The notes below the pieces were generated by a model. It did no database searches and had not been told where the DNA came from. It worked only from the letters and a program-made list of their open reading frames with translations. From a virus, in the IMG/VR virus record IMGVR_UViG_3300044700_000323, positions 1-32,615 of that record: DNA of 32,615 bases. One strand, 5' to 3'. A program made the translations under genes and the position numbers. This document shows, one piece after another, positions 1-24,014 of the stretch (position 1 is the first letter of the stretch; each line of letters starts with the position of its first letter).

Positions 1-3000
1 GATCTTCCGCACCAAGGTAACCATGGCCAATCTGCATGTATCCTGCGCCTTCAGCTTCAGCAGCTAGCTTCTCTAGCTTCTCTCTGGCCTTAAGGTGTTC
101 GTCGCGCTGGCTGCCGGGGATGCGCATGTTCTCGCCGTCGTCGTAGCCGGCCGGCGGCTCCAGGGCCACGTCGGCGTCCAGGCGCGTAGAGGTGTAGGCA
201 GCGGTGCCACTCTTAATGATCTGCAGCGCAGCTGCAGCCATGTCCTTCTGGTTCATGTGGATTGAACCAGGGATAGCCAGGAGCTCAGTAGTCCCGGCCG
301 GGAAAGCTCTAACGCGGGTAGCCACAGCAGCTGCGTTAATGACAGATCCGGTCATCTTAGTCTGACCCATGCGCCGTAAGCGCTCGCCGCCCTCCACATA
401 CAAGACGCTGCCAAGGCCAAGCTTCATCAGCTCGGAATTAACCTGGCTCATGCCAACCTTAGTAACGGTAGTCGGGAAGCCGGGGGTGCTGCCGTAGCCG
501 CGCATGAGATCCAGGCTGGCTACCTGTCTCTTGGTCCCGTCCTCAAAATGAATGTCGATAAGGACGTAGTCCTGGTGCTCGAAACCATAGCCGGCAGCGC
601 GGGCGTCGGCTGACTCATACCGGAGCTGAAGGTGAGACACCGGCTTAAGCACCGACTGTCCATTACCGGAATAGAACCTGTAACCATGCGGGAAGCGCGC
701 CCTAATGCTGGCCATAATGCCGGCCATATCCTGGGCTGCGCGATGAGTAATGAAGCCCTGGTCAGCCAGCTCTTGGTTGTTATGGTTAACACGGACGCCG
801 TCCGCGCTGAAGGTGGCATTGGCTTCGGCTTCTTTCTTGGCCGCCATGTCCTCGCGCCAGGAGCGCTCAAGCTCGCCCATCTTAACCATGGCGGCAGGAT
901 CCGGATCACCTTCACCAACCTCTAGATCATTTTTTTTTTTAGCTGCGTCGCCGTTGGCTGCTTTGTCTACGACGTCGCGGAGAGACTTAGGCTCGCTGGC
1001 CTGGTCGCCGTCCGGGGTGTATTCAGAGCCGGGCTCATTGAAATCATTTCCGTAACTTCGTATGTCAACTTGACGGCTTACGCCGCCGGCGCCGAACGCG
1101 TCCAGGATGGTCATCTTGGTGGCGCCGGCTACGCCGCTAATGTTATGAATGACCAGGCGGGCCTTATCCTGGGTAAGCCCGGCCGTGTAGACCATGACGT
1201 TAACCGGGTTTGCGCGATCGACGCCGGCCACGAACCTGTTAAAGCCGGTCTGGTCCGTTCCGGGGATCTTAGCCTTCATGGCCAGGAGGACGTCCTCGGC
1301 CAGGGGGATCGTGGCAACCATGCGGTTGCTGTTATCCAGCAAGATCAGACCAGGCTGATCTGGGCCAAAGATACGCTCGGCTTCAGCCATGACGTCGGCC
1401 GGATCTTTAATTTGTTTGGAGGATTGGCTGACGCGGAAGGCGAACATGCGCTCCGTGAGAGGCACCTTAAACTTACGGGCTGCCGGCTTGATCGGGATGT
1501 TAGACTCGCTGCGCCCGGATGGGGTAAGCTGCGCATACCGGTATCCGGCGATAGCCATGGTTCCCATGTATTCCAGGTTTGCAGCGTTAAGCAGACGCTC
1601 AATCTGAGCGCCGGCGGCGTGGTCGGCCGGGGATAGGCTAGACTTACCGGACGGGTGGTTATGGATGAACCAGACCTTGGCTGCGCCAGGGGTGCTAGCT
1701 GCGGTGCCGATAAGGATGCCAGGATTAAAGCCGGTGGCGGTAGGGCCACCGATCTGGTGGCTGGCAATCTGGATCGGACGACCGTTCTTGTCGGTGATCA
1801 GCAGGACGATGTTCTCCTGGGTGCGCTTGCGCATACCGGCGACGATATGTGCTGCGTCGTCCGCGGTCTTGACGAACTCGACGCCGGACATGATGTGGCC
1901 AATGGTAGAGTGTTCGACAAACTGATCGAGCATGGCGTCGGACAGGCCAAACTGAGCCATCTGGTCGCCGGTAAGGCGGCCGAACGGAAGGGTGCTGTCG
2001 AGCTTGGTCGGGAACACCGACGGGTTAGGCGCAGCCGGCTTCTTGCGGGGCTTGCGGGTTTTCTTGATGATAGGCTCGGCTGGCGTGGCGCCTTCCAGGC
2101 TGCTGTCCTGGTTGACCCTGGCGCCGGCTTCGCGCTCCTGGCGGGCGAACTCTGCGCCGGCGTTCGGATCTTCCGGGTTGGTTTCGTTGACGCCGATCTT
2201 GTCGCCGCCGGTCTTAAGCCAATTTCGCAAGTGGAGAGTAAATTCCTGGGCTGTGTAATCCCGTGCCATATTAGCCGGCAGACTGCCATCAAGGAACGCC
2301 CGTTCCCTGTCTCTCACATTAGCTTCATACGCCTCCATCTTTTCCTTGTCGTTGATGATCTCTCTAAGCATGGCCTTTTCTTCTGCAGTCGTATTGGCCC
2401 ACCACTCAACAAGATCGACATAAATGCCTCCATCTTCACCGACAGCGTTGGGGGGAATGATCTTGGAAATAGACTCAAGGGATTTGTCACCCTGGAGCCC
2501 GCCGCGGACGATGCCTTCGATGCTGTCCGGGGTGTTAATTTCTCCACGGGTAGCCTGGTTGCCGGAGATCGCGTCAAGCGCGGCCTGGTCCCTTGCGTCC
2601 TGCTCATCCTCGTTGTCTTGGTTTTCAAGAGGCGCCGGATCGTAAGCTTCACCTTCCTCGCGGATGCCCAGGCGTTCGCCGGTGGGGAGCTTCGGGGTGC
2701 CGGAGCTTCTTGAGGTTGGCGTCTTGAGTCTCTGGCGCACGTTCTGCGTATTGCTGACTACATCGAGCAGCTCTAGCTTATACATCATCGCAGCAACCTC
2801 TACATTGTTTACGGCGTTAGCCGTCTCAACGTCAGTAATGTCCGCGTCGCCGATGCTGATCATGATGCGCGCAGAATTGGAACGCTCCTGGACCGCTAGG
2901 ATCTTCGCAAGCGGGCTGTTGTCTGCTTCGACGTCCGGGCCGGTAGGGTCAAGGGACGGATCATCAATCGGGCTAATTGTCTCGTTGGTCTTACGGATCT

Positions 3001-5377
3001 GAAGTGGGCCCTTACCCCTCTTTTCAGAGGTAAGCATGAGCATGTCATCAATGCTGACCGGGAGGACGCCCATAAGGCGGTTGCCGCTATCGAGGAAAGC
3101 GATGCCAGACTTACGACCCAGGAGAGGGACGATCGCGTTAACCGCGTCGGCGCCATTAGAGATCTTAGGGAACAGGGAGTTTCCGCGGATAGTGAACACG
3201 CGCTCGACCAGGCGAACGCCGGCACCGGCGCCGTTCTTGTCAGCCTGGGAGTAGTTGCCCATGGGCTGATCGATAGCCAGGGTGATCGGAAGCGAATTGC
3301 CCTCCGTGTTCTTGTAGGTCTGCATGAACACCTCAACATCCTGGCCTCCAGGATGGAAGATGTAGCGAGGACCGGTAGCGCTTTCACCACGGCCGTCGGC
3401 GATCGGGTTGTTTTCCTGGTCACCGACAACGATCTGGCCCTTGAACTCAATGCCGACGCCGGCGATAAGCTTGGACACAGAAACCGCAGCCATCATGTCT
3501 GCCGCGGAGAACTTCATGGTTCCGGACGGGTGGCTGTGAGCTATGTAAACCTTACGGCAGCCAGGGGTGCTGGCGGCTACGCCGGCCAGAATGTTAGGAT
3601 GGAAGCCGACCGATCCCATACCGCCGATAGCATGGCGCAGGACGCTGATCGGCTTGTTGTTCTTATCCAGGAGCAGCATGAGCATGTTCTCCTGGGGCTG
3701 GTTACGGAAGAATTCATACAGCAGCGAGGCCGCGTCGCCGTCATTCTTGACGGTGTCCTTATACCAATTAAGGGTGCCAACCTGGGAGTGTTCTACGAAC
3801 TGAGCCAGGACGGCTTCGGTCAAACCGATCTTCGCCAGGGTTGCGATCGGGACGCGCTTGCTCGCGTTCTTAAAGCTGGGTCCGCTAATGTTGAGCTGAC
3901 CACCCTTGATGGCCGGCGCTGCCTTCTCGGCGTTCTGAAGGGGGGATCCCTTAAAGGCCGGTTCGTATTCCGGGTTCTCCTGGGGCGCCTCTTGCGGGGC
4001 CTCCTGGGGGGCTTCGGCCGGGGCTTCTCCTGGGGACTGTTCCGGAACCTCGGCCGGATCATATTCGCGGCCAGGGTCATTCTCGGAACCGCCGTCGGCG
4101 CGCTGGGTAGCGCGACGGCTTGCTAGAACTTCCGGGTAATCTTCTTCCGGGTTAACCTCACGAGACTTCCGGTCCGCTTCGGCCGGGATGCCACTTTCGT
4201 TTGAAGGTAAGAAGGCGCGGCGGGAGGTTCCCACCTGGCGCTGGAGCTCTGCGACCTGGCGCTGGAGATCCGCGACGACGGGGTCTACCGTTGCAGGAGC
4301 CGGTCCAGCAGCTGGCGCAGGGACGCCAGGAAGCTGAGCTTTGGCTTGGCCTTGGCCTTGTCCTGGCTGATACGGAGCTGTTGACTCTTGAACGCCGCCC
4401 GGAGCTTGAGATCCGGCGGGTGCTTGAATACCACTTTGAGCTGGGGCTTGCGGGTTGCCATAAGGAGAAGGCTGGCTTGGCGCCGGGGCGCCGCCAATAC
4501 CAAAGTAAGCTGAATTAGGGTTAGCCTGGATCCCCATGTTCTGGAGCTGGCTGGCCCAATTCTCAAAGGTAGGGGCATTGGCCAGGTCAACGCGGGCCTG
4601 GGCTTCGGGCAGCAGCTGAGGGGTGCCGCCAGGGGAGAAGTTAGCGCGACTGTCGGCGCCGGCGAATTGAGGTAAAGGCTGCGGGCCGGTAGGAGGCGTC
4701 AGCTGGGGCATTGGCGGCAGCTGAGGAACGCGCGGGGCCTGGGGCGCCGGCGGCGTCAGCTGAGGCATAGGCGGCAGCTGCGGGATACGGGGAACAGGAG
4801 GAGGCGGGGCGACCGGCAAACCATCCGGGCCGATCTGCGCCTGGGGCTGCATGCCAAGGCCGCGCGCGACTAGATCAGAAAGAGTAGTGGCGCCGGTGAT
4901 CGGCGCGGCAGCCTGGGGCGCCATAGGCGCCGGCATAGCCTGGGGCATAGCCTGGGCCGGCATAGCCTGGGGCATGGCCTGGGGAGCTCCGAAATCTGCA
5001 CCAGGCATTTCCATGCCTTGGAACTCCGGGGCAGCTTCAAGACCATAATCAGAAAGACCGGCAGCCGGAGCTGCAGCCGGGGCTGCGCCACCAAACAAGC
5101 TAGCAAGATCAGACGGAGTTGTGGCCGGGATACCAGGCTGCTGCGGCGCGATAGGGCTAATCTGCTCAGCCTGGGCAACGCCGGGGGAACCAAACTCCGG
5201 AACGGCAAATTGATTTGATCCGGCCGTGCCGGTCTGCGCTGCTGCTACAAGCTTGGCAAGAGCACCAAGGTTCTGAGCCTGTGGCACAGGCGCATTAGGG
5301 TTCTTGGCTTTGTTAGCGTTTAAGGCTGCCTCGTTCGTTGAGCCTTTTCCGCTATCTTGATTAAGGTTTAGAGCCAT
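1..5377 (-). CDS. Giant polyvalent virion/ejection protein with two RadC-like JAMM domains (partial, 3' end outside window)
   Basis: An open frame with no stop runs from ATG at 5377 to the window edge (at least 1792 codons). Residues 1-480 are rich in Pro, Gln and Ala with short repeats, a likely flexible segment. Two RadC-type JAMM domains follow. The first has Glu563 then H614-x-H616-P-S-G with S624 and D627. The second has Glu1188 then H1239-x-H1241-P-S-G with S1249 and D1252. The Glu-to-His spacing is 51 in both. Each is followed by a related second module (about 721-777 and 1302-1365). The C-terminal part (about 1490 on) has a faint GNAT-like GLGSVLYVEGGERLRRMG stretch. It is the last gene of the ejection cassette, the place where T7 keeps gp16. 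In RadC-fold enzymes the His/Asp/Glu set binds zinc, and the domain recurs in phage polyvalent proteins that enter the host with DNA. Peptidase or deubiquitinase-like activity is inference. The frame was checked at five separated points. Confidence 0.85.
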   Translation of the reverse strand, partial: MALNLNQDSGKGSTNEAALNANKAKNPNAPVPQAQNLGALAKLVAAAQTGTAGSNQFAVPEFGSPGVAQAEQISPIAPQQPGIPATTPSDLASLFGGAAPAAAPAAGLSDYGLEAAPEFQGMEMPGADFGAPQAMPQAMPAQAMPQAMPAPMAPQAAAPITGATTLSDLVARGLGMQPQAQIGPDGLPVAPPPPVPRIPQLPPMPQLTPPAPQAPRVPQLPPMPQLTPPTGPQPLPQFAGADSRANFSPGGTPQLLPEAQARVDLANAPTFENWASQLQNMGIQANPNSAYFGIGGAPAPSQPSPYGNPQAPAQSGIQAPAGSQAPGGVQESTAPYQPGQGQGQAKAQLPGVPAPAAGPAPATVDPVVADLQRQVAELQRQVGTSRRAFLPSNESGIPAEADRKSREVNPEEDYPEVLASRRATQRADGGSENDPGREYDPAEVPEQSPGEAPAEAPQEAPQEAPQENPEYEPAFKGSPLQNAEKAAPAIKGGQLNISGPSFKNASKRVPIATLAKIGLTEAVLAQFVEHSQVGTLNWYKDTVKNDGDAASLLYEFFRNQPQENMLMLLLDKNNKPISVLRHAIGGMGSVGFHPNILAGVAASTPGCRKVYIAHSHPSGTMKFSAADMMAAVSVSKLIAGVGIEFKGQIVVGDQENNPIADGRGESATGPRYIFHPGGQDVEVFMQTYKNTEGNSLPITLAIDQPMGNYSQADKNGAGAGVRLVERVFTIRGNSLFPKISNGADAVNAIVPLLGRKSGIAFLDSGNRLMGVLPVSIDDMLMLTSEKRGKGPLQIRKTNETISPIDDPSLDPTGPDVEADNSPLAKILAVQERSNSARIMISIGDADITDVETANAVNNVEVAAMMYKLELLDVVSNTQNVRQRLKTPTSRSSGTPKLPTGERLGIREEGEAYDPAPLENQDNEDEQDARDQAALDAISGNQATRGEINTPDSIEGIVRGGLQGDKSLESISKIIPPNAVGEDGGIYVDLVEWWANTTAEEKAMLREIINDKEKMEAYEANVRDRERAFLDGSLPANMARDYTAQEFTLHLRNWLKTGGDKIGVNETNPEDPNAGAEFARQEREAGARVNQDSSLEGATPAEPIIKKTRKPRKKPAAPNPSVFPTKLDSTLPFGRLTGDQMAQFGLSDAMLDQFVEHSTIGHIMSGVEFVKTADDAAHIVAGMRKRTQENIVLLITDKNGRPIQIASHQIGGPTATGFNPGILIGTAASTPGAAKVWFIHNHPSGKSSLSPADHAAGAQIERLLNAANLEYMGTMAIAGYRYAQLTPSGRSESNIPIKPAARKFKVPLTERMFAFRVSQSSKQIKDPADVMAEAERIFGPDQPGLILLDNSNRMVATIPLAEDVLLAMKAKIPGTDQTGFNRFVAGVDRANPVNVMVYTAGLTQDKARLVIHNISGVAGATKMTILDAFGAGGVSRQVDIRSYGNDFNEPGSEYTPDGDQASEPKSLRDVVDKAANGDAAKKKNDLEVGEGDPDPAAMVKMGELERSWREDMAAKKEAEANATFSADGVRVNHNNQELADQGFITHRAAQDMAGIMASIRARFPHGYRFYSGNGQSVLKPVSHLQLRYESADARAAGYGFEHQDYVLIDIHFEDGTKRQVASLDLMRGYGSTPGFPTTVTKVGMSQVNSELMKLGLGSVLYVEGGERLRRMGQTKMTGSVINAAAVATRVRAFPAGTTELLAIPGSIHMNQKDMAAAALQIIKSGTAAYTSTRLDADVALEPPAGYDDGENMRIPGSQRDEHLKAREKLEKLAAEAEGAGYMQIGHGYLGAED
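930..940 (-). other. A11 homopolymer, candidate transcriptional slippage site inside the giant gene
   Basis: On the coding (minus) strand there are 11 consecutive A, codons 1480-1483 (Lys-Lys-Lys-Asn). If one A is added in the transcript, the next codon is TGA (929-927). If one A is lost, the frame reads ATG ATC TAG and stops at 922. Either error therefore gives a product of about 1483 residues that keeps both JAMM domains and lacks the C-terminal domain. A-runs of nine or more are known sites of RNA polymerase slippage, as in Thermus dnaX. A sequencing or assembly error in the run length is possible, but the frame stays open on both sides at the given length. Confidence 0.5.
4691..4789 (-). 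repeat. Tandem proline-rich repeat in the giant protein
   Basis: Two adjacent copies of R-[IV]-PQLPPMPQLTPP are encoded, starting at 4789 and 4732 and separated by five residues (APQAP). They lie in the low-complexity N-terminal third of the giant protein. A further QAMP-rich stretch lies at about 4911-4984, and an EAPQ repeat lies near 4000. These are probably disordered linkers. Confidence 0.75.
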
Positions 5378-5446: not shown

Positions 5447-7771
5447 TTACTCGCCCTGGCCAGATCGGCTGCTCGTCGGGTCATACAGAGGTGGGTAATA
5501 CCGGCCTTCGCCGGTAGCTGCCGGGTAGATCTGTTTGATGCGATCGACGTCTGACTGAAGCGATGGGATAAGGGGATTAACCGGGACCTTATTAGGACGA
5601 ATTGCCATGAGCCTCTCGTTTTCAAGGGCCTCTCTAAGCGCAGCCAAGGCGTTCTCCTTGTCCTTCATGGTTGCCCTGGTCTTGTCTTGAACACCGGTAA
5701 CGAACTTTTCTTGGCTACCCCGGTAGCCGGACATAAAATGTTTCCATGCGTATGCGCGCTGGTTTGGCGGGTAGCGTTTAGCAAACGTCTCAAACTGATC
5801 CAGGAGCTCAGCGGCACGGTTAATCGCCGCCTTAGCGCGAGCAGCCGGCATGCCGGTGTTCTTTTCGATCTCGGCCGCAACCTCATCCAGGCCAGACTCA
5901 CCGGCTGCAGCCTTGTCCTTAATGATCTGAAACGGGTCGTCTATGTTGGCCTTGCCGGCGCCAAAGCTTGAGCCGCCGCCCATGAGCCCGCCTACCATGA
6001 ATGAAGATAGCGCCGTCTTTAGATCGACGTCGTCGCCCATAATTACGTTGGTAATTATATCCGTTAGGCCTTCTTCGGTGGCCTCCCACCAAGTGTCAAT
6101 GGACGCATTAATGGCGCGCGGAAGTAGGATCTTTTTATATATGCCGCCGCGGAACGTCTCTACAGGACGAAACGGTATGGACCTGGCTGCTGCCAGGACA
6201 GATCCAGATCCCTGTAATGACTTGGGAAGTGCGTTCTTGGCTAGACCTGTCAGCTTATCTCCGGCTATGTTCAAAGCTACGGCGGTTAAACCTTCAGCCA
6301 TAGCTCTCTTTTCGGCCTCGGATTTCATTAATCCCGTCTGTCCGAAAAATGCAGCCGGGTCCTTGTCTATTAAGGCCTTTAGATCGGCGCTAGCTTTAGC
6401 ATACGCCGGCGAGCTGGGGTCTGCCAGGTCTGCCAGGCTTATTTGATTGTCGCCCAGGAACTTTCCAAAGGCCTGGTTAAAATTAGTCCCAGCTCCCAAG
6501 GCTGCAGTAGATAAGCCCATGGCAGCACGGCCAACAAACGGAGCTGCCGGACCGGACGCCAGGCTAGCTGCGGCTGTCGCACCCGCGGTAGCAACGGTGT
6601 TAGGGGTAGACTCAGCAAGCTGCTGAAACATGGTGTTAGCTACGCCTAATACCCCGTGCTCATCATACACGTCGTCGTAGTTATTGCCCTCCTTGTTAAA
6701 TGTTTTCATGGGCTCGGACACCGGCGACCAATACCTGGTTCTGGCGTCACTTTGACCTAATGACTTAGATGCCGTAGTTAGATCTGCCGACACTTCACCG
6801 GATAAGAGCTCATCAACCTTAGCCTGGATCTGCTGATCGGTCATGGCAGCGCGCTGCTCCGGCGTCAGACTGAGGACATACTTAGCAACCAGGGACATTC
6901 CATAATCCCCGGCTACACGGCTATCCGGTAACCCGTAACCTCCGTCCGGCGCCGTGACAAACTCCGCGCTTGCCGGTGGCTCCTTAAATAAACTGACCCC
7001 AGACTCGCGGCGAGATTGCTGTTTATTAACCCTGCCCTGGTAGTCACTCCTAGCCCGGACAAGGTTGTCTGCATTTTCCTTATTTTTTAATGCTTCCTTA
7101 TGTCGAGGATCGTCGGTCGGGTATATGGCTTGCGGGACATAATTCCCATAGCTGCTGCCCATAACCGGGCCAGGGGTTTTCCTATACTTGGTCGTATCGC
7201 CGGCGACTATGTCAGCCAGGACAGCAGCCGGGTCATCCGGCATGGGTAGTCCTGCCTTGGCTGCCTCATGGTATGCGTCTGTTACCTCCGGCTGCCCTGC
7301 CTTGCCACCCTTGGCGTCAGCCAGCGCAGAGTAATCTGCAAGCGAACCTTCCAATGCGCGGCCATCATAGGCGCTAAGGACGTTATTGGTTCCGCGAACT
7401 AGCGCGTTACCTACGCCGGCAAAACGGCGATCAAGGAACGGCACCCCTACTCCAACGCTGGCTTGAGCCGGCTTAGGTTTAGCAGGACCATATTCAACCT
7501 TACCACCTCTAAGAAAAAACCCGTCGTCATAACCCTGGACGTTTGGCATTTCTGAAAGAAAGCTGCGGACGTTGGCATAGGTTGGTTTGTGGCCGCCCTT
7601 TGCTAGCTTGCCGTAAAGATCCACCATGGCACCGGCCGGCAGCCACATAACCCTGGCTTCTTCGCCGGGGGTTTCCGGCTCGGTTACCATCATGTCAGCA
7701 AAGCCACCGTCCGGGAGTGGAACTCTCGGATTAATCTTACCATCAGCGTCGAAAAAGCTAACGCTGCTCAT
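5447..7771 (-). CDS. Putative internal virion (ejection) protein, 774 aa
   Basis: I do not recognise a specific family. The protein starts MSSVSFFDADGKINPRVPLP. It has a soluble N-terminal half, a middle region rich in Ala/Gly with hydrophobic stretches (for example around the TVATAGATAAASLASGPAAP segment and the FMVGGLMGGG segment), and a charged, probably helical C-terminus. Such alternation suits an ejection protein that interacts with or crosses membranes. It lies between a coiled-coil virion protein (stop 3 nt upstream) and the giant JAMM protein (69 nt downstream), all on one strand, so it is probably co-transcribed late and packaged inside the capsid. The spacer before the start is CTCGTTAACCT with no Shine-Dalgarno. 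The role is inferred from position. Confidence 0.7.
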   Translation of the reverse strand: MSSVSFFDADGKINPRVPLPDGGFADMMVTEPETPGEEARVMWLPAGAMVDLYGKLAKGGHKPTYANVRSFLSEMPNVQGYDDGFFLRGGKVEYGPAKPKPAQASVGVGVPFLDRRFAGVGNALVRGTNNVLSAYDGRALEGSLADYSALADAKGGKAGQPEVTDAYHEAAKAGLPMPDDPAAVLADIVAGDTTKYRKTPGPVMGSSYGNYVPQAIYPTDDPRHKEALKNKENADNLVRARSDYQGRVNKQQSRRESGVSLFKEPPASAEFVTAPDGGYGLPDSRVAGDYGMSLVAKYVLSLTPEQRAAMTDQQIQAKVDELLSGEVSADLTTASKSLGQSDARTRYWSPVSEPMKTFNKEGNNYDDVYDEHGVLGVANTMFQQLAESTPNTVATAGATAAASLASGPAAPFVGRAAMGLSTAALGAGTNFNQAFGKFLGDNQISLADLADPSSPAYAKASADLKALIDKDPAAFFGQTGLMKSEAEKRAMAEGLTAVALNIAGDKLTGLAKNALPKSLQGSGSVLAAARSIPFRPVETFRGGIYKKILLPRAINASIDTWWEATEEGLTDIITNVIMGDDVDLKTALSSFMVGGLMGGGSSFGAGKANIDDPFQIIKDKAAAGESGLDEVAAEIEKNTGMPAARAKAAINRAAELLDQFETFAKRYPPNQRAYAWKHFMSGYRGSQEKFVTGVQDKTRATMKDKENALAALREALENERLMAIRPNKVPVNPLIPSLQSDVDRIKQIYPAATGEGRYYPPLYDPTSSRSGQGE

Positions 7772-7774
7772 AGG

Positions 7775-9010
7775 TTAACGAGATCTCGCTGCTGCTTCGT
7801 CGGCGGCCTTGCGCGCCAGGCCAGCCGGTGTGTTAGGGTATGAAGGCTCGCGGAGATTTGGTGGAGTGATGCCGGTGTTAAACCATGGATCAAACTCCAG
7901 CGGCTGCTGAGATCGATGAAGCCCATCCGGAGACAAAGTTTGGTCACTTTGCTGCATATATACGCTTTCATCGGACGGGGTTCGCCCGCCGCCATGTTTA
8001 CCGGTTTTTACATCCAGGTAAACAATGCGCGTTCCTGGTGGGTAACTCATGGCTTGCTCTCTGATCTCGTCCATCGTGCCTTCCAGGTAGTAGGTTCCTG
8101 GGTATTGGATCTGCACGTTTTGGAGGTTCTTCCTGGCTCCTTCTGTAGAGGTTGTTACGCCTGGTTTAAAGTCATCCTCTAAAGCGAGATTTGCTGCAGC
8201 GACAGGGTCCTTCTTTTTTTCGGCTTCAATACGGGCCGCGTCGTAAAGCGGAACGACATGGCCGGCGTGGCTTCCTGCAAAAGCGATCTTCATGATCTTA
8301 TCCGCTACTTGGGCCGGCGTTCCTGTAAACTGTCCTCGCTGGGATGCAGTTACAAGCTCGGCTATTGCCCCGTCAGACAACCTACGACCGCCACTAATGG
8401 ATCGGTAGACCGCTTTAAACGCATTAGCCATGTCGGCGTCGGACGGAGGTTTGTATTCCTTAGCCTCCTTGGCCTTGGCTGAATAAAAGCTCTCCGTATC
8501 CTTAGCTACAGCAGCAGCAGCGTTTGCGTCATCTTCGGCCTTTTGCTTATCAGCAGCAGCCCTGGATGTAGCATCAGCCTTGGCTTTAGCAGCCGCAGCA
8601 GTAGCAGCTTTACCCTCTGGAGTTAAGGCATAGACGTTCGCAACAGATGAGTCAGCGCCACCCAGGCGGGAATTAATTTCTGCCAGGCGACCAGCTTGGG
8701 CTTGTGTCAGCCCTCCGGTCCTGGCCGCCTCAGCCATGATCCGACCCTTCTCATCTAGAAGCCCCCTGTTTAGCTTAGCCTCTGCCAAGCGATCGTTATC
8801 ATACAGAGTCCTAGCCTCCCTGGCTGCTGTTTCTGTTTTGTGATCTTTTAACCTTAGTGTGTTTAGCTCCTCAGTTTGCTGAAACTGTCGGGCCTTAAAT
8901 TGCTGCTCCTGGTCCGGCATGAACAGCTTGGCAATACCTACGGCTGCGTCAGCCCAGGGATCCTGGCGCTGCTGCTGCCGTTGAGGGGTGTATCCGGAAT
9001 AGTCTGCCAT
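7775..9010 (-). CDS. Coiled-coil internal virion protein, 411 aa
   Basis: This is an Ala, Lys, Glu and Gln-rich protein. Residues 30-200 are strongly helical and probably coiled coil, with runs such as AAAAKAKADATSRAAADKQK. A more globular region follows at about 205-330, then a Pro-rich tail. The N-terminus is Gln-rich (QRQQQRQ). In gene order it falls where T7 encodes gp15, an internal core protein, but no direct similarity can be claimed by eye. It starts 4 nt after the preceding gene and ends 3 nt before the next, which indicates tight operon packing. The start at 9010 is preceded by CCTAACCTT and no Shine-Dalgarno. A structural role in the ejected core is likely; an enzymatic role is not visible. 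Confidence 0.65.
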   Translation of the reverse strand: MADYSGYTPQRQQQRQDPWADAAVGIAKLFMPDQEQQFKARQFQQTEELNTLRLKDHKTETAAREARTLYDNDRLAEAKLNRGLLDEKGRIMAEAARTGGLTQAQAGRLAEINSRLGGADSSVANVYALTPEGKAATAAAAKAKADATSRAAADKQKAEDDANAAAAVAKDTESFYSAKAKEAKEYKPPSDADMANAFKAVYRSISGGRRLSDGAIAELVTASQRGQFTGTPAQVADKIMKIAFAGSHAGHVVPLYDAARIEAEKKKDPVAAANLALEDDFKPGVTTSTEGARKNLQNVQIQYPGTYYLEGTMDEIREQAMSYPPGTRIVYLDVKTGKHGGGRTPSDESVYMQQSDQTLSPDGLHRSQQPLEFDPWFNTGITPPNLREPSYPNTPAGLARKAADEAAARSR

Positions 9011-9014
9011 AAGG

Positions 9015-9737
9015 TTAGGCTACAGGAACGTAGGGTAGGTTGCCTGGGGCGGTCATAAGCCAAGGGGAGTTTGTGGCAGCTTCCATAGCGCCGGCCTTCA
9101 TAACGCCTTCGCTAGCAAGCTTGTTTAGACCGGCTCCGGCGCTAGAAGCAGCAGCGTAGCCGCCGGCAACCATGCCGATCTTCTGGAGAATGTCTCCGAC
9201 AGTCTTAAGGCTGTCGCCCTTGTGGCTTGCGTAATCCATCTCGGCGCCGTGAGCGCTGGCAGAACCCTTCATGAAGTCTCCAACGACTCCGGTGTTCACC
9301 CTGGCGCGCGCGTTCTTGACCGCGGTATCGCTAGTGGCGTCGCCAAAGCCGGCCAGGATGGCTTTGTTCCTGGCGTCGATAGCTGAGCCCATCTTGCCGG
9401 CAGCGCCTCGCGCTGCGGACTCGTCGGCCACAACCCGGGGAGTTTCGGTCCCATAAGAGGATGCAACCTCAGCTTTTTTGCCGCCGGCCAGATCGGCCGT
9501 GTATGCCGCGTCGCGCTTGGCGGCTGCACCTGTCTCTGCAGCTACCCGGTTCTTGGCCGTGTTAGACGAGAGAGACTGAGAAAAGATAGCGTTAGCTTCG
9601 TCGCGCAGCGCACCCTGCCGGACGTTCTCAGCAGCCTGGGCAGAGCCCATGGCGCGCATGGCCTTCTTCTGGCCGGCGACTGAAGCTGCTGTGCCGGCCG
9701 CCGTAGCGGCGATCGCGATAGTAGTTGGTTCGCACAT
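9015..9737 (-). CDS. T7 gp14-like internal virion protein, 240 aa
   Basis: The protein begins MCEPTTIAIAATAAGTAASV, the short Met-Cys plus small hydrophobic opening seen in T7 gp14-type internal virion proteins. Length (240 aa against about 196 in T7) and position after the GNAT-like gene agree. The first 20 residues form a hydrophobic helix. The middle is an Ala-rich amphipathic helix region, and a second hydrophobic Gly/Ala helix lies near 190-210 (GMVAGGYAAASSAGAG). In T7, gp14 inserts in the outer membrane and starts the DNA ejection conduit; here that is inference from order and composition. It is the third successive small protein with Cys at or near residue 2. Confidence 0.65.
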   Translation of the reverse strand: MCEPTTIAIAATAAGTAASVAGQKKAMRAMGSAQAAENVRQGALRDEANAIFSQSLSSNTAKNRVAAETGAAAKRDAAYTADLAGGKKAEVASSYGTETPRVVADESAARGAAGKMGSAIDARNKAILAGFGDATSDTAVKNARARVNTGVVGDFMKGSASAHGAEMDYASHKGDSLKTVGDILQKIGMVAGGYAAASSAGAGLNKLASEGVMKAGAMEAATNSPWLMTAPGNLPYVPVA

Positions 9738-9739
9738 TG

Positions 9740-10036
9740 TTATTTAATTATGCGTTCGCTGCCCGCGGACGATTGATTTTTAGGACCGGCAAACAGGTTG
9801 CCAAGGTCGGTAGCCGGGGCGCTTACCCCGAAATTACCAGCTGCTAAGGGAGCTGGAGCTCCAGGCGCTGCCGGAGTTAAAGGTGATACCGCAGCCTGGT
9901 TTGCTGGGTTATTTTTCTGAGCAGCAGCGCCTACTGCCATCATGCCGCGATATGGCCCCCCCATGCTAGCCGGCGGCTTGCCTTCTTTCATGGCCTTAAC
10001 CATTTGCTGCATGCCTCCTCCGATCATACACATCAC
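9740..10036 (-). CDS. Small Met-rich virion-associated protein, 98 aa
   Basis: The start ATG at 10036 overlaps the end of the upstream gene by 4 nt (ATGA-type), so translation is probably coupled. The N-terminus is Met/Gly-rich (MMCMIGGGMQQMVKAMKEG). The rest is Ala/Pro-rich and looks disordered. Its last residues, SAGSERIIK, closely match the end of the upstream protein (SSGNERVVK). I recognise no family. The shared tail and the position inside the ejection cassette suggest a structural or accessory virion protein. With only 98 residues and low complexity the call rests on the overlap and the shared C-terminus. Confidence 0.6.
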   Translation of the reverse strand: MMCMIGGGMQQMVKAMKEGKPPASMGGPYRGMMAVGAAAQKNNPANQAAVSPLTPAAPGAPAPLAAGNFGVSAPATDLGNLFAGPKNQSSAGSERIIK

Positions 10037-10653
10037 TTCACGACCCTCTCGTTGCCCGATGAATAAGATCCAACGGTTGGTTTAGAGAAGCCAAAAGCCC
10101 GGAGGCCCATGGCGTCATTATTCATCATGCCGGCGTTATTAGCTGCCCCCAAGAGGCCGGTCGTGTTGGCAAAGAGCTGGCCTAGCGCCGACGTGGTAGG
10201 CTGATTGTTCTGGATAGCTGCCCTGGATAAGGCGCCCTGGGCCGCAGCCTGGGCGTCGCCGGTCATGTTGAGCTGTCCGACTAGATCAGATCGCTCGCTT
10301 TCAATGCTGTTACGCGCGAGCTGGCTGGACTCCAGGGCCTTATTGCGCGCTTCGACGCGGGCCGTGTCTGTCTGCTTATTGATTTCCGCGACGTTACGGG
10401 TCTTTTCGCTGGAGTCAGTAAGGCCGGATCGAGCCAGGTTATAGGCCAGGTTAGTGTTAACCTGTTGCAGCTGATCCGCGATCTTAGGCTTGGCGTCAGC
10501 CATGTATGCGTCCTCGCGCCTCTTAAAGTAGCTATCGTCAAACTGCTTGAACGTAGTGTCAATGTCGCCCATGCCGGTCTTGATGCGAGCCTGGCGGGCT
10601 TGCTCATCAGCGCGGGCCATGCCGCCGTAGTCTGGTCCAGATGATCCGCACAT
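10033..10653 (-). CDS. Conserved phage internal virion protein (MCGSSG family), 206 aa
   Basis: It begins MCGSSGPDYGGMARADEQAR. This opening, followed by an F-x-x-F-D-D-x-[YF]-[YF] segment (here KQFDDSYFKRREDAY), is a recurrent pattern in podovirus ejection cassettes, from memory of the family. The middle is helical and Gln/Asn/Ala-rich, and the end is GSYSSGNERVVK. It lies directly after the GNAT-like gene (5 nt gap) and overlaps the next gene by 4 nt. The likely role is an internal or DNA-ejection protein, perhaps comparable to part of T7 gp14. The exact biochemical role is unknown. The leader contains CCTAACGATT before ATG and no Shine-Dalgarno. Confidence 0.65.
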   Translation of the reverse strand: MCGSSGPDYGGMARADEQARQARIKTGMGDIDTTFKQFDDSYFKRREDAYMADAKPKIADQLQQVNTNLAYNLARSGLTDSSEKTRNVAEINKQTDTARVEARNKALESSQLARNSIESERSDLVGQLNMTGDAQAAAQGALSRAAIQNNQPTTSALGQLFANTTGLLGAANNAGMMNNDAMGLRAFGFSKPTVGSYSSGNERVVK

Positions 10654-10658
10654 AATCG

Positions 10659-11138
10659 TTAGGGTGTTTTTATAGGTTGGTTTAGCCAGCTGAAAAGAAT
10701 GAAGTCCTCACCGTTTTTTCCGTAGCTCTTTATTTCCGACTCTTTGTCGGCGCCAAGCATGCGCAGCCAGGCGTGAGCTACGCTATGCTGCGCGGATGAG
10801 TAACATTGAGCGCGATGTATGCCGGCGTCAGCCATTCCAATGGGCAGCGCGCGCTTAACAAACTTAGTAACAGAGAGTGAAACCTCCTGCCATTTGTCGG
10901 TAGCAAACATCCATAACGACCAGACGCCGTCCCACATAGGAACAACGCCAAGAGCCGCGACAGGAACTCCGTCGTCGTTCTTTGCGATCCATCCAAGCTC
11001 CGGAACGATCATAATGCTATCGACCAGGTGCTCCGGGTTTTCAGTCCAGCGCGTCGCGTAGATCTCACGGCGGTCCATGTCGCGCATGTTGTCGCAGATA
11101 TACAGGAGATCCGGCGCGTTGAGGTTAACCAGCTTCAT
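10659..11138 (-). CDS. GNAT-like acyltransferase fold protein, T7 gp13-like, 159 aa
   Basis: The start chosen is ATG at 11138 (MKLVNLNAPDLLYICDNMRD). Upstream in-frame codons lie inside the tail nozzle gene, which this gene overlaps by 14 nt. The residues around 54-75 (DDGVPVAALGVVPMWDGVWSLW) and the HSVAHAWLRMLGADKE segment near 120 resemble the core strand and C-terminal helix of GNAT-type proteins. In T7, gene 13 codes for a GNAT-like protein between the nozzle gene (12) and the internal core genes (14-16), and the order here is the same. It may act in assembly of the internal proteins rather than as an enzyme; the acetyl-CoA binding loop is not clear. The reading is mixed: motif similarity plus synteny. 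Confidence 0.6.
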   Translation of the reverse strand: MKLVNLNAPDLLYICDNMRDMDRREIYATRWTENPEHLVDSIMIVPELGWIAKNDDGVPVAALGVVPMWDGVWSLWMFATDKWQEVSLSVTKFVKRALPIGMADAGIHRAQCYSSAQHSVAHAWLRMLGADKESEIKSYGKNGEDFILFSWLNQPIKTP

Positions 11139-13995
11139 GCTTAGAGTGTTGGTCGTCGTAATGGACAATCGCGTTAGCCAGCTTGGCGTAGCCGGCATTT
11201 GAATTGGTGAGCTTAAGCCCGATGTGCGTCCCGTAGCCGGCGACGGGGATGCGCCCCAGGGCAAACGTAGGCTGCTGCATGGTGGCGATCTCGTCCTTTG
11301 CGTCCGGGTTGGTATAGTCGAACCCAATGTAAACCGTCCACTTACCTTCAACGGTAACGTCCAGGCCATTTACCTGTTTAAACGACGCCGGCTTATTGGC
11401 GTCCAGGTATGGCATCTCAACTGTTACCGGGCAGCTATCGTATACATTACCGCCCAGGCCGCCGTAGACAAAGATCTGGTTGCCGGCGCTGCGCGCGTAA
11501 ACCTTGTTCTCCATGGACGCGAGCTCCTGGACCTGGAAGCCAGGCTGGTATTCGGACCAGGCATTGATGCCGGACCCGGAGAAGCTGGACAGGACGAATA
11601 GCTTAGATCCCAGGGACAGCCAATAGCGGCCGTCCTCCGGCTCGATAATTGACTTGGCGTTATACTTGTCGGCCTCGGTCATGGTCCGCATGTGATCTAT
11701 GACCAGCTGATCTACCGGGGAGCCAATGTCATTAGCATAGGCTGCGTCGGTGTTCTCGCGGGCGCGCAGGGATCTAATCCCATTGTCAGCCAGGTAGAAC
11801 ATATCAACGGCGCCGACGGAGGCGACAGAGCCAGGCGCCAGGCAGCCGGTGTTATCCAGGATCTGCTTCTGCGCGTTAGACGCCGGGTCCGGGTCAAAGA
11901 ACCAAAGCTGGCAGTTACGCCGGGTAAAGATGGCCACATAACCCTGGTAGGCGCCGAAACCGGTAAGGTCCTCGCGGCCGCCAAAGTTATTGGACATGTC
12001 AATAAACCCGGAACCTAGCTCATAGGTGCCCCACTTGGTCGCGTCGTTAAGCTTAGAGAAATAGAGGGTAGATCCGGCTGCGACATACTCCTTGCCCTTG
12101 TATGTGGCAGAGAACGTAGGCTGGACGCCGCCGACGCGGTTGAAGCCGAACTGATACGGCTGACTAGGTGACGCCGGGTCTACGATGATGATCGAATACT
12201 TGTCGCCTGGGGTAAATGTATCCAGGAGCTCAAACTCCATGATCTGCGGGCTAGCCAGGATAAGGTTAGTCCCGCCGGAAAACGCGACAAAAGCGCTCAA
12301 AGTAACGTCACCGGCCGGCGTGGCAGAGAGGGTCCTGCCATTAGGTGACGTTCCCGTGCCCGTTAAAGCCTCCACCGTTACTGTCGTGTTGTTAGATACG
12401 GACGCAGTATACTCAGTTGCCGACAGGTAAGTGTTGATCTGGTTAACCGCGTTAAGGGCTAGCGAGCTGTTAGACGTCGTCCAGGCTACGCGCGCGCCCA
12501 TGATCTCTACGCCGTCAGCCTTAACTGAGGATAATCCATTGAACGTCCCACCGGCTAGCTGACCGGCTGAATAACCTAGCGTTTTCATTATAGACCGGCC
12601 GTTAGGGACTAGCGGATCTTCACCAGGCCTAAAATACGGGCTAGGCAGGACCTGTGCGTAATCAAAAAAGTTGTCGCCTGGGTTGCCACCGGTTGAACCT
12701 GGGTAGCCGGCTAATCCGTTGAACTCTACCCAAACGTCTTTACCGTTGGCGGTTTCGTAATCAGTAGCAGGAGCAATTAATGCCCAGCCTCCAGGATCGC
12801 GGTTATTCCAGCCGCCGCCTCCATGTGATGCTGTTGCCGTATAACTTGTGTTGACGGTGTTAGTGTTAACGTAATGTGCAAACGAGAAACAAAATCTCTG
12901 TCCAGGGTCACCACCTACACCACTAGGCATATCCCAGGCGCCGAAACCGGTAATGACAGCTCGCTTGGTTTGGATTATGACCGGCGTGGAAGTGAATGTT
13001 CCCGTGGCGGTGGCTGATATGCTAAACGAAACAGTCCCATTAATTGATGCGATCGTAGATCCATCGGGTATGCCCTGTCCGGTTACGCCCATGCCTACTA
13101 CCACATACTTGGTAATAAAATCCGCAGCTGCTGGGAAGGGTGTTATGACAGCAGATCCCTGGACAACGCTGCACGAAATTGTCCCATTAAGCGGACATGC
13201 AAAACCAAACAGCTCCTTAATGTCTACCAGGCTATCTCCAATAAATAGGCCGGTTACAGGAGGGAGGTTTTCGTAATAATGCTGGCGCAGCGCAAACGAT
13301 ATGCTGGCTGATGCTGATACGGATCCGGAAGCTATTGCAAAAGACCCCTTAGATTTATTATCCGGTGTAGGGTCGGTCTTTTTCTGGATCACGACGCCGT
13401 CCTTGGCCGGGAGGGAATTCTTAATGATGCTGCCCTTAAACTCAACCCCAGGAGGACCAATTACGCGCAGCTTATTATCAATGGCCTGGACGGAGTAAGG
13501 CTGGCTGTCGTAATTTGTGTAGGAAAAAACGGAAGCCAGGTGCGCTACGATGCCGGCGTTGTTAAGCATGGCCGCGGTGACGATGCCGGAGGTAAAGTCC
13601 TTGATGTAGGCGCCGTCCCAAAACGGGTATTTTACCCCGTTGGCAAACATGGCTATGACGAACGGCTTGCCGCCATAGACTGTTGAATAGACCACACCGG
13701 TCATGGAGTTACCGGCGCCCTCCGGCGGCACCAGGCGCTGGTAGCTTACGCCGGCCGGCATCTGGCTAGCCAGGTCAAGAGATCCAAACACATAGACAGA
13801 GCCGGAGCTCGTCTCCAGCCCGAATGTCCCAGGCGGCAGCGTGTAGGTAAGTTGAAAGGCCTTGCGCTTCTCGATCTCGCCCCCGCGCGTAACGTGCGCG
13901 TTGACCAGGCCGGTCAAGGTCCCAGGCGCGGATGACAGCTTATGTCGCCGCGTATCAAGGCCTCCCTTGAAATTCTCAACGACGATATATGGCAT
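11125..13995 (-). CDS. Tail nozzle / tubular protein B-like, 956 aa
   Basis: The N-terminus MPYIVVENFKGGLDTRRHKL matches the NFxGGLDxR opening typical of podovirus tail tube/nozzle and stabilisation proteins. The body is beta-rich, with many Gly, Thr, Ser and aromatic residues and Ig-like or propeller-like segments, and there is no long coiled coil. Residues about 210-600 hold long Ser/Thr/Gly stretches (for example SGSVSASASISFALRQ) that may be an inserted domain exposed on the tail. It follows the adaptor gene (start 4 nt after that stop) and precedes the GNAT-like gene, as T7 gene 12 follows 11. At 956 aa it is longer than T7 gp12 (about 794 aa). It probably forms the lower tail tube. Confidence 0.7.
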   Translation of the reverse strand: MPYIVVENFKGGLDTRRHKLSSAPGTLTGLVNAHVTRGGEIEKRKAFQLTYTLPPGTFGLETSSGSVYVFGSLDLASQMPAGVSYQRLVPPEGAGNSMTGVVYSTVYGGKPFVIAMFANGVKYPFWDGAYIKDFTSGIVTAAMLNNAGIVAHLASVFSYTNYDSQPYSVQAIDNKLRVIGPPGVEFKGSIIKNSLPAKDGVVIQKKTDPTPDNKSKGSFAIASGSVSASASISFALRQHYYENLPPVTGLFIGDSLVDIKELFGFACPLNGTISCSVVQGSAVITPFPAAADFITKYVVVGMGVTGQGIPDGSTIASINGTVSFSISATATGTFTSTPVIIQTKRAVITGFGAWDMPSGVGGDPGQRFCFSFAHYVNTNTVNTSYTATASHGGGGWNNRDPGGWALIAPATDYETANGKDVWVEFNGLAGYPGSTGGNPGDNFFDYAQVLPSPYFRPGEDPLVPNGRSIMKTLGYSAGQLAGGTFNGLSSVKADGVEIMGARVAWTTSNSSLALNAVNQINTYLSATEYTASVSNNTTVTVEALTGTGTSPNGRTLSATPAGDVTLSAFVAFSGGTNLILASPQIMEFELLDTFTPGDKYSIIIVDPASPSQPYQFGFNRVGGVQPTFSATYKGKEYVAAGSTLYFSKLNDATKWGTYELGSGFIDMSNNFGGREDLTGFGAYQGYVAIFTRRNCQLWFFDPDPASNAQKQILDNTGCLAPGSVASVGAVDMFYLADNGIRSLRARENTDAAYANDIGSPVDQLVIDHMRTMTEADKYNAKSIIEPEDGRYWLSLGSKLFVLSSFSGSGINAWSEYQPGFQVQELASMENKVYARSAGNQIFVYGGLGGNVYDSCPVTVEMPYLDANKPASFKQVNGLDVTVEGKWTVYIGFDYTNPDAKDEIATMQQPTFALGRIPVAGYGTHIGLKLTNSNAGYAKLANAIVHYDDQHSKHEAG

Positions 13996-13998
13996 GGC

Positions 13999-14697
13999 TT
14001 AGGATCTCTCGTCCCAGACGGCCCGGCCGCCAATATAGCGGATACGCTGGCCGCCATCCAGGCCGCCACCGTAGATGAACCGGTCCGTCTTAAGGCCCAT
14101 GCCCTTGAGACGATTAAAGTGGGATTGCGCCTGGCTGAGCTTAGCAGCTGCGTCTGCAGCTTTAGTCCTGGCCAGGTGCTCAGCTGCAGCGAACAGGATG
14201 ATCAGAGTGTCGTCCAGGAGCGCGACGTCGGTAGTCGCGATAAGTGGGGGAAGCTTGCGAACCGCGCGGAAGCGGAGGGTCTGGTTGTCTGTCGTCGGCA
14301 CCGGCCAGATCTCAAATTGATTGCCCTCGTAATGACGCCAGCGAACCGCCGGCTCCGTGGCGTCGTTCTTATCTGAGTCATAGTTGTTAAGCTCATTAGT
14401 CCCGATGCCATAGGTGATCGGGTGCCAAATGTCGCTATACTTGACGTGGGCGCAGCAGATCCGGTCAAAGTCAATGTCCTGGTCAAACGCGTAGTAGCGC
14501 TGGCCTTTTAGCAGGGGCTCGTCCCGGTCGATCACGCCGAATGACCAATCAAAGTCCTGCCACAGGCGCTCCTGCGTCCTGCGCAGCAGCTGATCGAATT
14601 GCTCGACCGTATTAACCCCCATGGCCACATTAGGGGACGCACCAATCTCAGCTCTGAGCTGATCGCGCAGACTAAGGAGACTAGTGTTCCTGGCCAT
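13999..14697 (-). CDS. Head-tail adaptor / tail tubular protein A-like, 232 aa
   Basis: It starts MARNTSLLSLRDQLRAEIGA, followed by LLRRTQERLWQDFDW near residues 36-50. Helical N-terminal segments with an L-x-R-A-Q-x-x-L-W pattern are typical of tail tubular A/adaptor proteins in T7-like and related podoviruses. The C-terminal half mixes strands (FEIWPVPTTDNQTLRFRAVRKLPPL) with an Ala-rich helix. It lies between the capsid region and the nozzle gene, with gaps of 6 and 3 nt. It should form the ring that joins the portal to the nozzle. The leader GGCCTAACCGAAC has no Shine-Dalgarno. Confidence 0.7.
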   Translation of the reverse strand: MARNTSLLSLRDQLRAEIGASPNVAMGVNTVEQFDQLLRRTQERLWQDFDWSFGVIDRDEPLLKGQRYYAFDQDIDFDRICCAHVKYSDIWHPITYGIGTNELNNYDSDKNDATEPAVRWRHYEGNQFEIWPVPTTDNQTLRFRAVRKLPPLIATTDVALLDDTLIILFAAAEHLARTKAADAAAKLSQAQSHFNRLKGMGLKTDRFIYGGGLDGGQRIRYIGGRAVWDERS

Positions 14698-14703
14698 GTT
14701 CGG

Positions 14704-15006
14704 TTAGGCCTTGGGTTCGTCCTTAGCCTTAGCGCCGGTATCGACGCCAACCTCGGAGAGCTCAGAGGGAACCTTGGGCATGGCGCCAGGGAACACGGCC
14801 TTGAACGCCTCGTCGCCGTATTGCAGCTTAAGGCGGTTAACCTCGTCGGCGTTGCTGCGCTTGACGGACTCGATCTCGACCGGCGCCACGACAGAGTCGT
14901 CGCCGTGGATGTGCTTGAGCAGGACGATCTCCGCAGGGGTGACCCGGCGCGTGACCGTATGCTGAATGTTGCCGTTAAGAAGGATCTCTACAATAGCGGT
15001 CTGCAT
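14704..15006 (-). CDS. Small protein downstream of capsid gene, 100 aa
   Basis: This short acidic protein begins MQTAIVEILLNGNIQHTVTR. The N-terminal half reads as strands (VEILLNGN, TVTRRVTPAEIVLLKHIHG) and the tail is charged and probably disordered (TGAKAKDEPKA). I do not recognise the family. It is the first gene after the strong terminator that follows the major capsid gene, and it directly precedes the adaptor gene (6 nt). That position is used in related phages for small head-completion proteins or unassigned proteins. A DNA-binding or enzymatic motif is not visible. Confidence 0.6.
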   Translation of the reverse strand: MQTAIVEILLNGNIQHTVTRRVTPAEIVLLKHIHGDDSVVAPVEIESVKRSNADEVNRLKLQYGDEAFKAVFPGAMPKVPSELSEVGVDTGAKAKDEPKA

Positions 15007-15045
15007 AGGCCTAGTAATCTGCCCAGGCGCCTGGTGCGCGCAAAC

Positions 15046-15071
15046 AAAAAAGGGGCCCCGGATGGGGCCCC
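15046..15071 (-). terminator. Rho-independent terminator after the capsid gene
   Basis: On the minus strand an 8-bp perfect stem GGGGCCCC / GGGGCCCC (15064-15071 and 15052-15059) with a 4-nt loop (ATCC) is followed by six T (15051-15046). Outer CAAACA/TGTTTG arms extend the symmetry, so it could work in both directions. It lies 23 nt beyond the capsid stop codon and would lower transcription of the tail genes relative to capsid. Confidence 0.85.
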
Positions 15072-15093
15072 TGTTTGTAGGATCTAAGACCGC

Positions 15094-16176
15094 TTAGGCG
15101 ACCTTATAGACGCCGGAGCTGTTAAGCTTCTTCGTCACAAGACCACCCGTCCAGGTCATGGCCTTGTAGATAACATACTTATCTTCGGGGCGAGCCGGGT
15201 TGTGGGTCTTGTTTTCTTCGCCATCCATGACGTAGAGCTGCAGGGCATCGGAGTCGATGATGTAGCAATAGTCGGTCTGGTTGCCGGAGCCGCCAGCTTC
15301 GGGCAGATCATCCAGGGTCGGGTCATAGACGAACTCACCGATGCCCAGGAGGCTGGTGATGCCCATGCCGACGGTGTTGGAACCGGTGAAGCCGGACTGA
15401 GTGTAGATACCCTTGGAGTGGATCTCTTTCTCAAGCTTCTCCAGGAAACCAGAACCGCAGAAGATCGCGTTCGGCTTGCCGCCGTAGCGCTTCAGCTGAC
15501 GCACTTCCTTACGGAGGGAGTCGATGATGTTGGTCGAACCGGACGCGTAGGTGAACTTGTCCGTGCGGTTACGCCAGAGGGCGTTGGTCGCGCGGGAGAT
15601 GCCGCCGGTGGTGCCGGTAGCGTTCAGATCCGTGGCGCCGCCGGTGATTGCGAGGCCGGGCTTGAGGAAATTCATCAAGCCAGCCACAACCTTGGCGTCC
15701 TGGGAACCGTCTTTCCAGAACATCTGGTTCATACCGCGGGCCCAGCCTTCGGTCATGTCGTCGAGCTTGGCCTTGAGGATGTTGGTGAGGACGGTAACGT
15801 CGCGGTTGCTGTGCTTAGAGGTGCTTTCGCCGGTCGTGCTGTCAGAGACGGAGATACCGTCGATCTTGAGCTCGGTCAGCGTGACCTTGATGCCAGCATG
15901 GATTTCCTTCCAGGGGAAGAAAACGCGCTTGGTGTTACCGGGGTTGTCGTAGGAGACGGAGTCGTCGCCTTCGTATCCGTGGATCCCAGGGAGGGAGTCA
16001 TGGAACGTGATCGGGAGGGAGATGTCACCCTTACCGCCGGGGAAGGTCTGCTTGCGCTTGTTCATGAACGCGAGCAGGGGCTTTTCCTGGATGGTCTGGG
16101 CGAACGCGTCGCTCTTGACGTGGAAGTCGAGAGCCGATGCGACGATGTGGTCGAGGGAGGAGAACGTGGAGGGCAT
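15094..16176 (-). CDS. Major capsid protein, HK97-fold, 360 aa
   Basis: The protein begins MPSTFSSLDHIVASALDFHV. It contains a stretch GGKGDISLPITFHDSLPGIHGYEGD and a central segment TEGWARGMNQMFWKDGSQDAK, a layout seen in N4/P22-related podovirus capsid proteins of 350-430 aa. The end (TWTGGLVTKKLNSSGVYKVA) is strand-rich, as expected for the P-domain/A-domain. It sits between the scaffold gene (21 nt) and a strong terminator, the usual place for the most highly expressed virion gene. The family placement is by pattern, length and order rather than by a catalytic motif. The leader AACAAAACGAACCAGATACT is A/C-rich with no Shine-Dalgarno. Confidence 0.8.
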   Translation of the reverse strand: MPSTFSSLDHIVASALDFHVKSDAFAQTIQEKPLLAFMNKRKQTFPGGKGDISLPITFHDSLPGIHGYEGDDSVSYDNPGNTKRVFFPWKEIHAGIKVTLTELKIDGISVSDSTTGESTSKHSNRDVTVLTNILKAKLDDMTEGWARGMNQMFWKDGSQDAKVVAGLMNFLKPGLAITGGATDLNATGTTGGISRATNALWRNRTDKFTYASGSTNIIDSLRKEVRQLKRYGGKPNAIFCGSGFLEKLEKEIHSKGIYTQSGFTGSNTVGMGITSLLGIGEFVYDPTLDDLPEAGGSGNQTDYCYIIDSDALQLYVMDGEENKTHNPARPEDKYVIYKAMTWTGGLVTKKLNSSGVYKVA

Positions 16177-16197
16177 GGTAGTATCTGGTTCGTTTTG

Positions 16198-23708: not shown

Positions 23709-23821
23709 AGCCGGATCTTGTAAGCGCCGGTAAAAACGGGCAAGGGAACAGTTTGTAGGACCATATTTCTGCGACCCGCAAATTTTTCCGCGCGGGGGGA
23801 GATGAGATTTATGAGTAAAAA

Positions 23822-23945
23822 CCGGGGGTGTAGGCCGGGGGTGAGTGGAGGGAGGAGCATGAGGTGGGTGGTAGGTGGGTGGTAGGTGGTAGGTGGGTGG
23901 GTGGTAGGAGGGGCATGGGTGGGTGATCATGAGGGGGAGGGTAGG
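23822..23945 (+). repeat. G-rich tandem repeat block between divergent operons
   Basis: The plus strand holds AGGTGGGTGGT twice in perfect tandem (23862-23872, 23873-23883), then AGGTGGT and AGGTGGGTGGGTGGT. GGGGG and GGGG runs lie on both sides. The G-runs are dense enough for G-quadruplex formation on the plus strand. The block lies in a 306-bp gap between the fibre gene (minus) and the lysis gene (plus). No clear sigma-type promoter was recognised beside it. It could be a promoter/leader element, a packaging (cos/pac) site near terS or an origin element. Confidence 0.7.
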
Positions 23946-24014
23946 TGCACCTAGTAGACGCGCGCGCGTGAGCCCTATGTAGCTAGCGCACCCGCAGGAA
24001 GGGGTAGCGCCGGC

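Follow-up and report, generated by a model that had tools for sequence, protein, structure and literature searches.

Two intact RadC-type JAMM domains, and a poly-A run directly after them, in the gene of a giant phage protein

RadC is, to our knowledge, widespread and carries an intact metal site, yet it has no agreed function, and the locus described here raises the question of what a phage might do with two such domains placed in one very large protein. The window, that is, the whole stretch of DNA which was analysed, is the IMG/VR virus record IMGVR_UViG_3300044700_000323 of 32,615 bases, and the gene in question is a giant open reading frame (ORF) at its beginning. A reading made earlier from the letters and frames of this DNA (the sequence-only reading) had proposed a single frame of at least 1792 codons, and such a frame does run on the minus strand from 5377 down to 2 without closing. 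This is about half of the gene, since in the complete relative L008, on a contig of 45.1 kb, it is about 3,690 codons long. The N-terminal part of the protein begins with a proline- and alanine-rich lead, which is followed by two RadC units.

2-5377, minus strand: giant ORF, the N-terminal 1792 codons of a longer gene, with the frame still open at the contig end.
3413-3745, minus strand: RadC/JAMM copy 1 (E563, H614, H616, D627), matched by PF04002 with 55 bits.
1541-1864, minus strand: RadC/JAMM copy 2 (E1188, H1239, H1241, D1252), matched by PF04002 with 47.8 bits, modelled by AlphaFold at a predicted local distance difference test (pLDDT) score of 87 and matched to the structure 2qlc.

The protein encoded in the window holds two intact RadC-type JAMM domains. 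Both matches lie above the curated cut-off of the Pfam RadC family PF04002 (22.1 bits), although the full-length RadC cut-offs of NCBIfam were failed (78 vs 180 bits and 56.8 vs 133.85 bits). Two complete JAMM motifs, H614-S-H616-P-S-G with D627 and H1239-N-H1241-P-S-G with D1252, stand where the sequence-only reading had placed them, and the Glu of a QEN motif (563 and 1188, respectively) precedes the first His by exactly 51 residues in each. All the metal ligands, Glu, His, His and Asp, are kept in both copies in the arrangement Glu ... HxHPxG x(5) SxxD. The same reading had described a repeat around the motifs; the copies are indeed paralogous well beyond them (BLASTP E=3e-36, 371 columns, 27% identity), but the repeated unit is larger than was described and comprises RadC plus a second domain in about 330-390 amino acids. 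Relatives were collected from viral and genome contigs, and 35 units were aligned, namely nine of copy 2, 11 of copy 1 and 15 from distant giant proteins. The JAMM Glu, both His, the Ser and the Asp are invariant in 35/35 units, and so are a Pro and one Arg further on. Both RadC copies may be catalytically active, as predicted hydrolases.

The fold was predicted for copy 2 with AlphaFold on the basis of the 35-unit alignment, giving a pLDDT of 87 and a predicted template modelling (TM) score of 0.86. The first half of this model agrees with the RadC protein 2qlc of Chlorobium tepidum (target-normalised TM score 0.83, root-mean-square deviation 2.3), and a profile search also matches copy 2 to 2qlc (E=6.8e-15); the clustering of the ligands was judged by this fold match and by the alignment to 2qlc. 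Copy 1 is assigned the RadC fold by its homology. Each unit, however, does not end with its RadC half.

2747-3208 (approximate boundaries), minus strand: second half of copy 1, ligand-free, a probable pseudo-JAMM domain, homologous to the corresponding half of copy 2 and with its element order taken from a low-confidence model of the twin region.
1085-1471, minus strand: second half of copy 2, ligand-free, a probable pseudo-JAMM domain with RadC-like element order and an in-register profile alignment.

In the copy-2 model the second half runs helix-strand-strand-helix-strand-helix-strand, which is the order of the RadC half, with the ligands absent. When the profiles of the RadC half and of the ligand-free half were compared, they aligned in register over 102 columns, and 0/200 column shuffles did as well. 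Copy 1 shows the same element order as copy 2 in the AlphaFold model of the twin region, which is poor (pLDDT 58) and whose quality was too low for it to serve as a guide to the domain arrangement. Modelling and profiles together suggest that the ligand-free half of each unit is probably a pseudo-JAMM domain. Weak fold matches in the PDB to unrelated zinc proteases were treated as noise.

More unexpected than the twin RadC itself is a run of A at the boundary of the module.

930-940, minus strand: A11 run (Lys1480-1482), the proposed slippage site and the sole homopolymer of at least 8 in the window.
922-924, minus strand: TAG stop if the run is read as A10, the product ending KKKMI at about 1484 amino acids.
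927-929, minus strand: TGA stop if the run is read as A12, the product ending KKKK.

The run follows the twin module directly on the coding strand, where shuffling gives an expectation of 0.16 for a pattern of nine A. A10 or A11 is found in all nine of the twin contigs that cover the site: A11 in the window, L003, L008, L106 and L010, and A10 in L005, L006, L011 and L012. The contig of L006 ends right after the run, and eight lineages have downstream sequence; in 8/8 of these the A11 register continues into the ejection half of the gene and a reading as A10 or A12 stops within 12 codons. In the A10 lineages it is the genomic frame that closes, with KKKTRR or KKKTKR as its last residues, and a shift of one base separates it from the long frame downstream; the split is seen in both genomic registers. 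The giant gene of three of these contigs consists of two overlapping frames joined at A10 (L005 7032-16243, L011 7130-16731, L012 6659-13632). The single-RadC relatives L017 and L094 have no such run at the site, and DNA pattern scans for the run gave no contigs beyond those already found. In 2.74 Mb of other related loci 14 A/T runs of at least 9 were counted. In many genomes selection against slippage has been reported to be visible from a run length of about nine (Baranov et al., PMC1088944). Programmed transcriptional slippage is probably the best explanation of the run.

It might also be supposed that the protein is a polyvalent ejection protein with duplicated RadC but that the run is unprogrammed, being a lysine linker, and that the gene is simply split in two in the A10 lineages. 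A Lys-rich linker is present in all, an own start is possible for the downstream frame in L005 and L011, and long A runs are found at other places in 7/109 other giant RadC ORFs. Such a linker, however, does not explain why every codon of the run is AAA across lineages with a synonymous divergence (dS) of 0.6 to >1, when AAA makes up only 17% of the Lys codons in twin-clade genes, or why these GC-rich loci have no other long homopolymer. Moreover, the TAG of the A10 register is maintained in 8/8 lineages with downstream sequence by the rare codons CTA/TTA (8% of Leu) or GTA (9% of Val). This explanation is considered rather unlikely. The seven non-twin ORFs just mentioned, out of 109 distinct ones, are L058, L077, L122, L131, L135, L140 and L041; their runs are of 9-16 A on the sense strand inside the ORF, at differing positions, and none of the ORFs has a T run. 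Other polyvalent genes may use slippage.

The A11 register leads into the second part of the protein, of which the window holds the beginning.

2-929, minus strand: start of the ejection-associated C-terminal half, which is reached in the A11 register only and matches the C-terminal profile of the relatives.

In the relatives this C-terminal region is homologous to annotated virion structural proteins of the Pseudomonas phages KPP25 and phiR18 and to the 2441-amino acid protein that Microcystis phage Mae-Yong1326-1 encodes at the same place, in which the domain LPD1 is present. After the twin module the relatives carry an HEXXXH motif, a variant reported for some metallopeptidases of polyvalent proteins (PMC5512222); the classic HExxH was not found in the tested C-terminal halves of the twin clade, and Pfam gave no LPD or metallopeptidase match in the twin clade itself, the window protein included. 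The giant protein is very large and multidomain and is encoded beside virion genes, as are the phage-type polyvalent proteins. Iyer et al. (2017, PMC5512222) placed RadC in the polyvalent proteins of conjugative elements only, which is contradicted by the twin clade and by L016. The latter encodes at 6431-16177 a 3249-amino acid phage protein with RadC, ParB_N and LPD38, which is similar to DarB-like PHROGs.

The gene stands at the end of a cassette, from which the following features are taken.

5447-7771, minus strand: 774-amino acid protein upstream in the ejection cassette, its order conserved in L008 and L106.
10659-11369, minus strand: phrog_308 internal virion protein.
13999-14697, minus strand: SU10-type head-tail adaptor (PF24175).
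15094-16176, minus strand: major capsid protein of podovirus type (NF033394, 247 bits vs a cut-off of 80).

The order is capsid, adaptor, a 956-amino acid protein, the phrog_308 internal virion protein, proteins of 206, 240, 411 and 774 amino acids and then the giant gene, and from the capsid to the giant gene it is conserved in the clade and partly in two isolates. The conserved synteny bears out the proposal of the sequence-only reading that the gene closes an ejection-type cassette. That reading was right in the type of domain and in the cassette position, and it missed the ligand-free halves, the cutting of the gene by the contig end, the metallopeptidase motif and ejection region of the relatives, and the A10/A11 run. 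These homologies and this order make it most likely that the giant protein is of the phage polyvalent type and occupies the terminal ejection position; its C-terminal part probably keeps it in the virion until it is ejected together with the DNA.

The explanation which is preferred, with some reserve, is that of a polyvalent ejection protein with twin RadC units, each made of a half with an intact JAMM metal centre and a ligand-free half, and with a free twin form made by slippage. Late transcription of the cassette would give mRNAs with differing numbers of A, the RNA polymerase slipping at A10/A11, so that some mRNAs would encode the twin RadC together with the ejection protein and others the twin RadC alone. 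The fused form would be delivered along with the DNA, the free twin-RadC form would act in the infected cell, and the RadC pair would hydrolyse a host molecule, the ligand-free JAMM-like half being probably a scaffold or a substrate platform. The predicted targets of RadC-type JABs are nucleic acids or nucleotides in preference to peptides (Iyer et al., PMC5512222), and a nucleic acid or nucleotide would be the favoured substrate, with ubiquitin-like conjugates as an alternative drawn from the wider JAMM family. A role in host takeover or against host defence, which the sequence-only reading had suggested, may be considered by analogy with the known behaviour of polyvalent proteins (PMC5512222). 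More tentatively, and with a chance slightly short of even, poly-A slippage would divide the output into delivered fused forms and free tandem-RadC forms, in which each unit is an active-plus-pseudo JAMM pair paralleling the eukaryotic MPN+/MPN- pairs.

The RadC pair could instead be a maturation enzyme of the producing cell, which processes the giant protein or virion proteins, and no injected effector at all. Prepackaging or in-head self-processing has been suggested for polyvalent metallopeptidase domains (Iyer et al., PMC5512222), and a free RadC-only product would appear late, with the structural genes. This alternative is unlikely, for the prediction cited above assigns to RadC-type JABs nucleic acids or nucleotides and not peptides, and RadC units recur in giant proteins of otherwise different architecture.

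The RadC twin is kept in about ten viral contigs. In trees the copy-1 units group together (100/100 support), apart from the clade of copy-2 units, which makes the duplication older than the twin clade, the divergent L106 included. L017, whose C-terminal region is the same but which has only one RadC, falls outside the two copies in one tree and beside them without resolution in the other; its branch is long. L094 has only a copy-2-type unit, and as this is nested among the copy-2 sequences, copy 1 was probably lost there. In a census of 117 distinct RadC-unit ORFs, of which 113 are longer than 1000 amino acids, real twins are confined to this clade, about 100 other giant RadC proteins sampled having one RadC; in L021 an insert interrupts a single domain and gives the appearance of a double match. 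Purifying selection acts on both copies, with ratios of nonsynonymous to synonymous substitution (dN/dS) of 0.07-0.38. These data also bear on the idea that one copy only is an enzyme and the other a paralogue serving as structure or decoy. The faster evolution of copy 1, its inserts, its absence from L094 and the reading HNHPST for HNHPSG in one subclade, with the ligands kept, speak for this; nevertheless, its Glu, both His, its Ser and its Asp do not vary in 11/11 copy-1 sequences or in L106, and the purifying selection includes copy 1. A single active copy has a low probability. Two products made by ribosomal frameshifting on the A run, with no slippage of the RNA polymerase, are very improbable: a -1 shift on A AAA AAG would join both frames in the A10 lineages, but the short product of the A11 lineages needs a +1 (or -2) shift, one ribosomal mechanism cannot serve both registers, and no downstream hairpin consistent across lineages was found (z-scores -1.8 to +1.65).

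Several points weigh against the twin-RadC ejection protein with a slippage-made free form. HHalign gives the profile match between the two halves of a unit a probability of only 26%, and copy 1, apparently lost in L094, is not indispensable everywhere. The difference between A10 and A11 could in principle be one of assembly, and the downstream half in the A10 lineages could have its own start codon. The evidence for location in the virion is homology to annotations. In addition, the nearest isolate by capsid, Mae-Yong1326-1, was described with a long flexible tail, and this makes podovirus morphology and T7-like ejection uncertain here. The gene content and order of this phage (L054) are podovirus-like despite the tail so reported.

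The protein can be compared with several known systems. Like the polyvalent proteins of phages (DdrB/DarB and the N4 virion RNA polymerase group; Iyer et al. 2017, PMC5512222) it is very large and multidomain and adjoins virion genes, while an HEXXXH motif is present in its relatives and LPD1 in the same-place protein of Mae-Yong1326-1. Unlike the polyvalent RadC described so far, the RadC here is of phage type, occurs twice and has a slippery run behind it, and no LPD was found in the window protein. With cellular RadC (PF04002; 2qlc) it has in common the JAMM motif and the RadC fold, but the window units stay below the full-length cut-offs of NCBIfam, have the added ligand-free half and lie inside a giant protein. 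Its gene comes last, behind those for capsid, adaptor and internal virion proteins, as does that of the T7 gp16-position ejection protein, a likeness of position; no transglycosylase domain was detected by the domain searches. The run finds its parallel in the type VI secretion genes tssM1 of Citrobacter rodentium, with A11, the short form in frame and 20-25% slippage (PMC4256274), and tssM3 of Yersinia pseudotuberculosis, the mirror case with the long form in frame (PMC4256274). These have likewise a poly-A run, a quick stop in one register and long and short products, and their short and long in-frame pair resembles A10 and A11 here; slippage was shown experimentally in them, while in the phage gene it is inferred. 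If the run is a true slippage site, it would be an unusual way for one gene to supply two forms of an injected effector. A phage lineage which has duplicated RadC and keeps both active sites under purifying selection in a probable ejection protein makes the question of RadC testable in phage infection.

The family is already deposited in UniProt, where it is known only under an automatic name: A0A6J5M0M8 and A0A6J7XFQ9, both from uncultured Caudovirales phage and named "RadC-like JAB domain containing protein", are 59-60% identical over the copy-2 unit. The whole protein and copy 2, used as queries, had no match in 50,697 phage records, and PADLOC found no known defence-system protein in the window. 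A GNAT-like domain suspected at residues of about 1545-1725 was supported neither by Pfam nor by a profile search of the PDB. The 45.6-kb contig IMGVR_UViG_3300032307_000462, whose ends are L007 and L009, has the same giant-gene stretch at both ends with only 84% DNA identity, which may reflect a chimeric assembly or the joining of two related phages. Finally, at 21240-24212 on the minus strand, between terminase and replication genes, the window encodes a 990-amino acid protein that contains collagen-like/tail-fibre repeats and gives many matches to tail-fibre entries of PHROG.
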